A stretch of 64,000 bases of DNA from a bacterium (GTDB taxonomy: Bacteria > AUK180). This document shows positions 37,360 through 51,738 of the stretch, piece by piece; within the stretch, counting starts at the first letter, position 1; each line of letters begins with the position of its first letter. A program made the translations under genes and the position numbers. The notes beneath the pieces were generated by a model. That model had not been told where the DNA came from. It searched no databases and was given only the letters and a program-made list of their open reading frames with translations. The DNA lies in contig JAGLGN010000020.1 in the NCBI GenBank assembly GCA_023144005.1, positions 74,941-138,940 of the forward strand, in the 5' to 3' direction.

Positions 37360-37864
37360 ATCTGATTCATGAATACGGTAACAGTCGTTCCCAAGTGAAC
37401 GAGGTACAAGGTTGGTGCAGAGGAGAATAAGAAAAATAGTGAATAATGGGAGAATAATCGTAGGGGCACGGCATGCCGTGCCCTTCTGAGAGAGTGCGGA
37501 TATTATTTTACAGTTGATTCTAACGGGGCGAAGAGTGTACAATTGCTTCACAATTTTCAACTCTTCGCTTGGAACTTTTGCACCGGGACAGTCGAACTCC
37601 TGCGGAGTACGGCATGTCCCATATCTTGTTTGGGGTGCGGCGTGATATGATTGGAACAGGAGAATTAATGAGTTAAACGAAATATTGATTTTCCGGTTAC
37701 GGGTGTGTTTCTTTTTCCACTTCGTACATCGCACCTAGTACTGTTTTTATCACTTTACACTTCACACTTCACACTTTCTTCTGCACTTGTGCCTTGTTCC
37801 TTCCCCCTGTTCCACTGGGTCCACTTGTCCCTGGGTCCACTGGTGCACTGCGAAACGTGTCCCC
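37360..37864 (+). repeat. composite intergenic repeat, copy A
   Basis: This copy matches 51807-52233 module by module in the same orientation: an opening TCTGATTCATRAATACG, an ATCGTAGGGGC-type segment (here with the inverted pair GGGCACGGCAT/ATGCCGTGCCC), the 138-nt core (37516-37653), a tail ACGAAATATTGATTTTCCGG, a CACTTTACACTTCACAC tract and a closing CTTGTCCCTGGGTCCACTGG. The modules are conserved to different degrees. Apart from this repeat and the two promoters at its edges, the 805-base gap 37284-38088 holds no gene. Confidence 0.75.
37516..37653 (+). repeat. 138-nt core repeat, copy A, with three stem-loops
   Basis: Aligns without gaps to 51939-52076 with three differences in 138 bases by hand count. 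Stem 1: GCGAAGAGT (37528-37536) with ACTCTTCGC (37560-37568), enclosing AATTG/CAATT. Stem 2: GGGACA (37585-37590) with TGTCCC (37615-37620), enclosing ACTCC-TGC-GGAGT. Stem 3: ATATC (37621-37625) with GATAT (37644-37648). It may be a structured RNA, a mobile palindromic element, or a conserved DNA site. Confidence 0.8.
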
Positions 37865-38033
37865 TATCTTACTTCGCTCCAGTGTTCTATTGTTTAAACG
37901 GATGATTCTAATGAAAATAACGAAATATTGATTTTCCGGTTACAGGTGTGTTTCTTTTTCCACTTCGTACCCGCACCTCGAACCTCTTACTGTATTTATT
38001 ACTTTACACTTCACACTTCACACCTCACACTTC
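37676..38033 (+). repeat. tandem copies of the repeat tail
   Basis: The tail module (AACGAAATATTGATTTTCCG..., then TTTCTTTTTCCACTTCGTAC and a TTACACTTCACACTTCACAC tract) occurs at 37676-37777 and again at 37919-38033, so this locus has an extra tail copy compared with the element at 51807. The second copy ends shortly before the promoter at 38052. Confidence 0.75.
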
Positions 38034-38051
38034 TTAATGCTTCACGCTTCT

Positions 38052-48823: not shown

Positions 48824-49270
48824 CTATTGGAGAAATCCTCTGAAAACAGGGAAATACAACACTGATCCCTTAACATATTCCCCAATGCCACCGCCGATCT
48901 GCAGCATAATATACATCACGACCATTATTAAAAGAGAGGACAGGATAATGCCGAAACCGCCTCCCAGAATAGAATCAATTATCTTCAATGGTGTGACATT
49001 AATAAAATTCTTTATGATGAACGCTATGAGTCCTATCACAAGAAGATACAATAAAAACGCGATTATATAACCCACCCAGGGTTTTTCGCCAACGATCCTG
49101 ACCATTCCCGAGCCGAAGATCTTAATGATGGGTAAACTGAAATTGAATGACATCCACATGGATGTAACGATTGCAAATACGGGAAGCAGAACCCCGAGAA
49201 TGCCCTTTTTCCAAAAGACCACTGCACCGGAAATGATGAGGATGGAGCCGATCAGATCAAATAGATTCAT
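48824..49270 (-). CDS. CvpA-family membrane protein
   Basis: A 148-residue protein with four predicted membrane helices, beginning MNLFDLIGSILIISGAVVFW, the typical CvpA opening, with a conserved glycine segment LKIIDSILGGGFGIILS. CvpA proteins are linked to colicin V export and envelope integrity. It overlaps the DHH gene by 14 bases and precedes thrS by 9. Confidence 0.82.
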   Translation of the reverse strand: MNLFDLIGSILIISGAVVFWKKGILGVLLPVFAIVTSMWMSFNFSLPIIKIFGSGMVRIVGEKPWVGYIIAFLLYLLVIGLIAFIIKNFINVTPLKIIDSILGGGFGIILSSLLIMVVMYIMLQIGGGIGEYVKGSVLYFPVFRGFLQ

Positions 49271-50423
49271 CGAACGCCTCTAAAAAGATTCTCCTGAAGT
49301 CCTTTTCATGTTCGGCATCAAATAGACAGCCGGCTGCGCGCGGATGGCCGCCCACAGAGCCGTAAGGGAAATCTTTATCCTTTACTTTCAGCATCATCTG
49401 CACCAGATTCTTATCGGCGTTCTCACCTTCTCTTATCTCACCGGAAATTTCTGTTCCGAATTGATTGAGAATGAGAACCACCTTATTGGGATGATCCTTG
49501 ACAAGATTAGAAGCGATCACTCCCAGAATATAATGCGATGTATCGATCTTATAGATTATCAACTCGCGGTCGGGACAAAACTCCGCCAGTTCACTTGAGG
49601 CGGCATAAATTCTCTGTATTTCTTCTCTCAATTCCCGCCTCTTTCTTGTCAGGTCGGCGGAAACATCATCGCCTGAATAAATAAAAGAGGGGTCATTCAG
49701 CTCCAGGGCTTTTGCCAGGACACGGAAAGCGGTTGCTTCATGCATGTCGGGATGATGGAAGAATCCGGCATTGACATAATACACGCATTTTTCCAGAAGA
49801 TTCTTGTAGTCATGGCCTTCCAATGGCTCCAATAACTCAGGATTCTCTTTCTGAATAATCTCTTGAAGCTCGGTATATTCATCAGAAAAGAATGCGTGGT
49901 CACCGCGAAGCCCGATCGCCGCCAGCCATGCGTATTCCTCCTTGAAGAATCGGCGGTTAAGCTCATATCCGAAGAATGACGCAGGATGCCATATATTTTC
50001 ATACCCCAGCATTCTCGCATTTATATACTCGATAGAATGAGGGATCGTATCCCTGTAATCCTCACCGATATTATGATGGTCATACATGAAGATAGCGTCA
50101 ATGGTCGCTGACCAATGATGAAGCAGGTCACGCTCCTTACCCAGGTCAAGGTCGGTTACAATGAGAATGTCTGGAGAGATACTGTCTATTAAAGCCCTTT
50201 CCTGTTTCATTTTGTAGGATTTGGTTGAAACCCAGATAATATGCTCAAGGGGAGCTTGAGTGAGTTTTTCGACAATACGGGTAATATAGAGCCCGGATGT
50301 CACACCATCCGCGTCGCCGTGATGCACGAGGACAACCTTCTTTCCGGGAGATATCTTCTGCTTGAAGAACTTCTCCGCTGCATCTATCATTTCTTCCCAA
50401 TCGAGATAATTCCAATGTACCAT
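49257..50423 (-). CDS. DHH-family phosphoesterase (RecJ/NrnA-like)
   Basis: A 388-residue protein. DHH motifs are VLVHHGDADGVTSG, VTDLDLGKERDLLHHW and FMYDHHNIGEDYRD; the C-terminal DHHA1 motif is SVGGHPRAAGCLFD. Family members are manganese-dependent exonucleases, nanoRNases or cyclic dinucleotide phosphodiesterases; the exact substrate cannot be told. The ATG is preceded by AGGAAAG and by the promoter at 50450-50478, making it the first gene of the run down to the dGTPase. Confidence 0.9.
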   Translation of the reverse strand: MVHWNYLDWEEMIDAAEKFFKQKISPGKKVVLVHHGDADGVTSGLYITRIVEKLTQAPLEHIIWVSTKSYKMKQERALIDSISPDILIVTDLDLGKERDLLHHWSATIDAIFMYDHHNIGEDYRDTIPHSIEYINARMLGYENIWHPASFFGYELNRRFFKEEYAWLAAIGLRGDHAFFSDEYTELQEIIQKENPELLEPLEGHDYKNLLEKCVYYVNAGFFHHPDMHEATAFRVLAKALELNDPSFIYSGDDVSADLTRKRRELREEIQRIYAASSELAEFCPDRELIIYKIDTSHYILGVIASNLVKDHPNKVVLILNQFGTEISGEIREGENADKNLVQMMLKVKDKDFPYGSVGGHPRAAGCLFDAEHEKDFRRIFLEAFDESI

Positions 50424-50478: not shown

Positions 50479-50600
50479 ATAATGATGCTGTATCAAGGAT
50501 AATTGGTGAAGGTAATTGCAAATAGGTAATTATTTGACCGGATCGGGGGCGATAGATCAACAGATTTTCGAGACAAACTGTTTTTCACTCCAATCTCACA

Positions 50601-50634
50601 GTTGCACGATTTCGTAATTACGAAATCGTGCAAC
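50601..50634. repeat. perfect 34-bp palindrome
   Basis: The left half GTTGCACGATTTCGTAA is followed directly by its exact reverse complement, with no loop. It lies in the 427-base gap 50424-50850 between divergent genes, 123 bases upstream of the DHH -35 box. It lacks a T-run and loop, so it is not a standard terminator. Confidence 0.9.
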
Positions 50635-50696
50635 CACCTTATAAATACGCGGGATTATCCTTACTTACATTACTTGCGGGCAATATGCATATCATT

Positions 50697-50728
50697 GTAC
50701 TTTCGTATTTAGCTAAATACGAAAGTAC
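50697..50728. repeat. perfect 32-bp palindrome inside a 142-bp inverted-repeat element
   Basis: The left half GTACTTTCGTATTTAG is followed directly by its exact reverse complement. Around it, TATCCTTACTTA (50656-50667) and TAAGTAAGGATA (50786-50797) are perfect 12-bp inverted arms, and a further ATTAC/GTAAT pair continues after a one-base offset. The arms plus centre resemble a miniature mobile element. Confidence 0.85.
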
Positions 50729-50806
50729 TATTTTCACCCTCGTCTCACATATAATAATTGAAACGTTATCTCTCGTTTTTGGTAATAAGTAAGGATACCC
50801 TCTGAT

Positions 50807-50835
50807 TTGACTTATTGGACTTTTCTCATTACAAT
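50807..50835 (+). promoter_or_regulatory. promoter of the GGDEF gene
   Basis: TTGACT (50807-50812), a 17-base spacer and TACAAT (50830-50835). The TTG start codon follows 15 bases later, so the leader is under 10 bases, with GGGGG at 50841-50845 as the only possible ribosome site. Confidence 0.75.
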
Positions 50836-50850
50836 ATATTGGGGGTATGA

Positions 50851-51738
50851 TTGAAACGGAACATTGTCATCTTTGACTCGGAGAGCGGAGGATTCGCCCG
50901 ATTGAACCTTATTTTCAGAAATAATTTCAACTGTCATCATTATAATAATTATTCCCTGCACATTGAAATGCTGAAAAATCAGGATGTGGATCTTTTTCTT
51001 TTTATCATTCACAAGACGGACGGCGAGGCCTTTGAGCTCCTGAAGAAGATACATGAATCTCCCAAGCTGAATGTAATCCCCAAGATCACAATTGCGGACG
51101 AGATGAATCTCGATCTGGAGATACGCCTTGTATCCCTGGGGGTAATGTATTTCTTTACTCCCGATTATGATGTAAAACGCTTTTACAGGACAGTGGATAA
51201 TTTAGTAAGGTTCTACAGTCTGGTAACGCAGATCAATCCCCTTTCCCTGCTTCCGGGCAATCTTGAGATCCGCCGAATAATTTCACGGGGTCTTGAGAAT
51301 AAGGATGACTTGATCGTGGGATGGGCGGATATTGACAACTTCAAAGTATTTAACGATACATTGGGGTATTTTGAAGGAGACCGGATAATCAAGATGACCG
51401 CGTGGCTGTTGATGGACATGGTGAAGACCCATGATGCAGCGGGCTTTGTAGGCCATATCGGGGGTGATGATTTCACCTTTCTTGTGAAACGGAAACTGGG
51501 CAAGCCCATCGGTAAGGATATTGTAAATTTCTTTGATCTGATCATCCGATCCCAATACGGGCTTCTGGAATTGGAGAGCATAGGCAATAAGTCATTGAAC
51601 ATCCCCGAGATACTGACCATTACGGTTGCAATGACCCCATTGAGCAAACACAGAACAATATACGATATAAGCAAACACCTTGCTCATTTAAAAGAGCAAT
51701 TGAAGGGAGAGCCGGAATCTAATTACTCCATTTCCTGA
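50851..51738 (+). CDS. receiver-like plus GGDEF-domain protein, possibly degenerate
   Basis: A 295-residue protein starting with TTG. Residues 1-120 fold like a receiver (NIVIFDSES), but the phosphoacceptor region reads LFIIHKTDGEAF, without the usual aspartate. The GGDEF domain follows: GWADIDNFKVFNDTLGYFEG and the active-loop variant HIGGDDFTFLV, with GGDDF in place of GGDEF/GGEEF. Active diguanylate cyclases normally need Asp/Glu then Glu at those positions, so activity is doubtful; GTP or c-di-GMP sensing is possible. An ATG at 50847 is in the wrong frame. Confidence 0.85.
   Translation: MKRNIVIFDSESGGFARLNLIFRNNFNCHHYNNYSLHIEMLKNQDVDLFLFIIHKTDGEAFELLKKIHESPKLNVIPKITIADEMNLDLEIRLVSLGVMYFFTPDYDVKRFYRTVDNLVRFYSLVTQINPLSLLPGNLEIRRIISRGLENKDDLIVGWADIDNFKVFNDTLGYFEGDRIIKMTAWLLMDMVKTHDAAGFVGHIGGDDFTFLVKRKLGKPIGKDIVNFFDLIIRSQYGLLELESIGNKSLNIPEILTITVAMTPLSKHRTIYDISKHLAHLKEQLKGEPESNYSIS

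Follow-up and report, generated by a model that had tools for sequence, protein, structure and literature searches.

Perfect palindromes in a bacterial intergenic gap as probable orphan copies of dispersed families paired with ArsR/SmtB-like genes

The window analysed here, a 64-kb stretch of bacterial DNA (64,000 nucleotides of genome G000), contains a 427-bp gap between a DHH-phosphoesterase-like gene on the minus strand and a GGDEF gene on the plus strand. Two perfect palindromes, named P1 and P2, are found in this gap, and its features are as follows:

49257..50423, minus strand: flanking gene, similar to DHH/DHHA1 phosphoesterases (Pfam matches weak and under the curated cut-offs)
50570..50600, minus strand: P1-adjoining sequence TTTTCACTCCAATCTCACAG (reversed CTGTGAGATTGGAGTGAAAA), common to other P1 copies of the genus
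50601..50634, no strand: P1, 34-bp perfect loop-less palindrome GTTGCACGATTTCGTAATTACGAAATCGTGCAAC with 17-bp arms
50656..50667, plus strand: left arm of a 12-bp inverted repeat, TATCCTTACTTA, probably incidental
50697..50728, no strand: P2, 32-bp perfect loop-less palindrome GTACTTTCGTATTTAGCTAAATACGAAAGTAC with 16-bp arms
50786..50797, minus strand: right arm of the 12-bp inverted repeat, probably incidental
50851..51738, plus strand: flanking gene, GGDEF-domain protein

As claimed by a first, sequence-only reading, the palindromes of 34 and 32 bp are exact and loop-less and span 128 bases end to end. P1 starts with GTTG and ends with CAAC, and P2 both starts and ends with GTAC. A chance origin is indeed unlikely, with 1.8e-5 palindromes with arms of at least 16 expected per window at the window's composition, and the loop-less palindromes next in length in the window measure 20 bp. 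The gap also lies between divergent promoters, as had been supposed, with good sigma-70-like predictions on the minus strand (50478-50450) and the plus strand (50807-50835). The same reading had P2 centred in a 142-bp stretch framed by the 12-bp inverted repeat. This repeat is exact over 12 bp, but the midpoint of P2 (50712.5) lies 14 bp off that of the frame (50726.5). The arm TATCCTTACTTA occurs one further time in the window's genome and not at all in the sister species G001, which is about the level of a reversed-pattern control, and the orthologous frame in G001 is imperfect. Since its arms are unrepeated, its orthologue is imperfect and P2 is off centre, the frame was rejected as an inserted element or transposon end; nor does it show the terminal inverted repeats (TIRs) common to family members that mark MITEs.

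Copies were counted genome-wide by pattern and BLAST searches, with seven genomes of the phylum as the comparison sample. Both P1 and P2 are single-copy in G000 (2.67 Mb; BLAST), where a looser pattern retrieves a few degenerate P2-like sites. Many different sites in G001, and in three further genera of this family, do carry P1- and P2-like palindromes, so that a search for the same arms, proposed in the sequence-only reading, did yield dispersed related palindromes. That reading was to fall if no related palindrome and no conservation existed elsewhere; related copies occur in relatives. P1 is identical (34/34) to a stray copy on contig C118 of G001, the BLAST alignment of the window reaching 94% over 54 nt including P1 for C118 and 80% for C154. 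With P1-type palindromes also adjoining ArsR-like genes in G003 (C171) and G004 (C6), P1 was assigned as an orphan of the TTGCACG palindrome family. P2 is identical (32/32) to a palindrome just downstream of an ArsR-like gene on G001 C39 and has a degenerate orthologue at the equivalent place on G001 C23, and was assigned as an orphan of the CGTATTTNNNNAAATACG family. G005, which belongs to another family, has roughly a dozen P1-type copies, 34-44 bp long, yet its ArsR relatives are only distant, a point against a link between the palindromes and ArsR-like genes. A third related palindrome with core CGTATTTTCGTAATTACGAAAATACG recurs in G001, G002, G003, G005 and G006; no ArsR-like gene was recognised beside it in these five genomes. 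The maximum is 28 pattern matches (one mismatch) in G001, with other palindrome types counted in. An assembly artefact was ruled out by the identical palindromes in independently assembled genomes, and a viral origin was rejected, as viral contigs lack the exact P1 or P2 pattern. Relative to gene orientation the copies appear random (20 unidirectional, 8 convergent and 8 divergent), without preference for promoters or gene ends. Because of this lack of preference, plain operators or terminators explain the copies poorly. One P2-type palindrome, at about 498-515 of L070 (G003 C121), apparently falls inside coding DNA and directly follows a Walker A motif (GPPGTGKT).

Several copies in G001 form inverted pairs about 380 bp apart that enclose one ORF of about 97 aa. 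This ORF matches Pfam HTH_5 (ArsR, PF01022) with an E-value of 1.6e-12 (1.7e-9 to 3e-16 over the three proteins tested), and the nearest solved structure is SmtB; an alignment of the ArsR-like clade contains no conserved cysteines. In the typical unit, a palindrome closely follows the stop codon of a single gene, and a second one frequently precedes the gene. With a strict threshold (palindrome score of 9 or more, within 90 bp of the gene), 12 of the 15 clade members have a palindrome, versus 1/13 other ArsR genes (p 1.7e-4), and the same scoring finds none downstream of 68 ORFs of the window. By inspection, a downstream palindrome accompanies 14/15 clade genes: 11 of these palindromes reach the threshold, and the remaining three, at G004 C6, C118 and C71, are weaker, those of C118 and C71 having a GGTT core that breaks the symmetry. 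Palindromes stand on both sides of 7/15 clade genes, and some members have them on one side only. The palindrome CGTAT[CG]TTCGTATATACGAA[CG]ATACG flanks both sides of the gene on G000 C17, G002 C115 and G001 C66, the P1 type does so on G004 C6 and also goes with the G003 C171 gene, and an ATGTCGCATTGTCGTAATTACGACAATGCGACAT palindrome goes with the ArsR-like paralogues of G000 C26 and G001 C64. An inverted repeat next to an arsR-type gene, as at ArsR/SmtB operators, is present in the relatives and not in the window, and cognate genes for P1 and P2 were not found in the window's genome.

The ArsR units stand alone, and the neighbouring genes are unrelated and differ from unit to unit. No transposase adjoins the units examined, and the ArsR-like gene itself encodes no known DNA-moving enzyme. 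Integron attC sites were considered and rejected: on inspection the palindromes lack the RYYYAAC ... GTTRRRY core boxes, and the units lie alone among unrelated genes, not in cassette arrays. Among 386 sampled genomes, the clade (E at most 1e-22) was detected once outside the window's family and in five genomes within it, and a genome-contig scan with a narrower alignment gave four loci, each of them in a MAG from the window's phylum. A candidate unit outside the phylum was discarded, as in G138 the hairpin behind the clade-like protein is T-rich and resembles a terminator. Repeat units of an ArsR gene and a palindrome were absent from the open-licence literature searched. Directly downstream of two related ArsR-like genes, arrays of the octamer ATATTCGC replace the single palindrome:

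L125 1799-1852 (G003 C327): ATATTCGC octamer array
L138 1427-1486 (G002 C52): ATATTCGC octamer array

Proteins and palindromes diverge together. With half-sites delimited manually and small shifts permitted, protein distance correlates with palindrome half-site distance (Mantel r 0.53, p 4.5e-4), and the groups in the ArsR-like protein tree largely follow palindrome type. In an alignment of the P1-type copies plus one copy of the G000 C26 type, both sides are altered in 11 of 19 arm pairs, compared to a mean of 4.2 after shuffling, with no shuffle as high, and 0-2 in slid controls. The central 12 bp played no part in collecting the copies, and they are fully paired in 11/14 of them. This covariation and pairing show that the symmetry itself is maintained or restored.

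Signs of mobility were obtained from syntenic comparisons. An ArsR unit and a solo palindrome on G001 C71 are both missing at the syntenic places on G000 C25, and the C71 and C118 ArsR-like proteins are 97% identical. The counterpart of the window's gap in G001 is split across two contigs: one retains a P2-like palindrome with the core of G001's own units, and the other runs at its end into the start of an ArsR unit. This state fits repeated invasion and conversion between copies. The comparison for empty sites, suggested for the gap in relatives, showed related units to be absent at syntenic sites of G000, but no target duplication was found and the insertion ends at the compared syntenic sites are not clean. 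Selection or recent insertion, as put forward at the outset, fits the dispersed recurrence in relatives, the arm covariation and the presence or absence of units between sister species.

Based on the palindrome families, the linkage of gene and palindrome, the co-divergence of protein and palindrome, the presence or absence of units between sister species and the arm symmetry, all read from sequence, P1 and P2 are probably orphan copies of two related dispersed palindrome families, each cognate to a clade of small ArsR/SmtB-like winged-helix genes, which together form co-evolving REP-RAYT-like units. An ArsR-like homodimer would bind its own palindrome, the arms of which may frequently be read as octamer half-sites such as TATCTTCG. 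Where an upstream copy is present, the protein might repress its own gene, and the palindromes could spread as REP-like repeats via some mobilising enzyme or by conversion between copies. The palindromes of the window are probably solo remnants with little effect on the DHH and GGDEF genes at either side.

The closest comparison is with REP/RAYT systems, or REPtrons (Nunvar 2010, PMC2817692; PMC3733652), which likewise consist of small dispersed intergenic palindromes with a single gene between two copies, each gene clade having its own repeat with which it co-evolves. Unlike in REPtrons, the gene is an ArsR-like DNA-binding protein instead of a tyrosine transposase, the palindromes are loop-less and perfect instead of tagged stem-loops, and there are tens of copies at most instead of hundreds. 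REP repeats are tagged at one end with GTAG or CGTC (PMC3733652) and usually exceed 100 copies per genome (PMC2817692). P1 and P2 have no such tag, although some P2-type copies of G001 happen to have GTAG beside the stem, and the copies number one each in G000 and at most 28 pattern matches in G001. The ArsR/palindrome units are placed outside the REP family because the defining tag and copy number are absent and no transposase was seen beside the units examined; by analogy, their anatomy may work like that of a REP-RAYT pair without family membership. It is possible, and is suggested here tentatively, that they are selfish REPtron-like units whose transposase is replaced by an ArsR-type DNA-binding protein without catalytic function; protein and perfect palindrome would spread and co-evolve as a pair, and solos such as P1 and P2 would be left behind across genomes.

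According to a second explanation, P1 and P2 are ordinary operators bound by an ArsR-type repressor, with the DHH and GGDEF genes in its regulon. The units do share with ArsR/SmtB repressors the PF01022 fold and, in some cases, a palindrome placed at the promoter of the arsR-like gene itself or immediately 5' of its ribosome-binding site; in addition, P1 and P2 lie between two divergent promoters and G001 retains a degenerate P2 at the equivalent position. However, neither predicted promoter is overlapped by P1 or P2, the closest ArsR-like proteins in G000 pair with other palindromes and copies are not enriched upstream of genes. The constant feature, and the rule here in contrast to ArsR/SmtB systems, is placement downstream of the gene; the conserved cysteines are absent, the palindromes are dispersed, there is no conserved neighbour to regulate, and perfect symmetry over 32-44 bp is rare for single-site operators. 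This explanation is therefore considered unlikely. It is quite improbable that a tyrosine (Y1/HUH) transposase which reads a single-strand hairpin moves the palindromes as REP-type repeats, with the ArsR-like gene as a passenger. Size, dispersal, pairing round a gene and compensating arm changes all resemble REP/RAYT (PMC2817692), and GGGGACGGTG repeats, of a kind seen with transposable TIRs, adjoin several copies, but the missing tag of P1 and P2, the ceiling of 28 matches per genome and the lack of a transposase beside the units examined speak against it, and a passenger would not need its own palindrome per ArsR clade. Transcription terminators or RNA hairpins are hardly credible: unit palindromes do stand just 3' of stop codons and P2 scores terminator-like in a loose scan, but where intrinsic terminators have a G+C-rich stem and a T-tract at a gene's 3' end, the stems are AT-rich, the downstream copies have no consistent T-tract, neither a gene-end nor a convergent-gene bias exists, no Rfam match comes near the gathering score, and P1 and P2 lie between divergent genes.

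The reading of P1 and P2 as orphans of co-evolving gene-palindrome units accounts for otherwise puzzling perfect palindromes in the gaps of these genomes. REP/RAYT is the main known case of dispersed palindromes in bacteria that have a gene of their own, and that gene codes for a transposase; in the present units, the corresponding gene codes for a small transcription-factor-like protein, with a separate palindrome in each clade. Should binding be confirmed, the units would supply a series of naturally co-evolved pairs of protein and DNA site, and would allow a test of how a regulator can spread along with its site when no transposase is carried.

As small non-coding dispersed repeats, the palindromes also resemble MITEs, but neither a repeated TIR nor a target duplication was found for the copies in the window. 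MITE-like units in G005, of about 125 bp with 17-bp TIRs in L164, are built around a central P1-type palindrome:

L164 1449-1577: MITE-like unit, 17-bp TIR CTATATAACTGCGCATA
L162 1449-1587: MITE-like unit, 14-bp TIR

On G001 C71 (L197, about 1475-2434), an insert that contains a solo P2-type palindrome and small genes resembling the nucleotidyltransferase/HEPN type is bordered by copies of CACCGTCCCC (GGGGACGGTG), and G000 has a single CACCGTCCCC at this place. The same CACCGTCCCC/GGGGACGGTG motif adjoins several other palindrome copies. Intergenic dispersed repeat modules are also present at about 37500-38050 of the window (G000 C13:112497-112898), and a query from G001 C71 (L197 770-1232) gave more than 80 matches in G000, which fall into two modules, each about 100 bp long. 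Such dispersed repeat modules seem to make up much of the genus's intergenic DNA.
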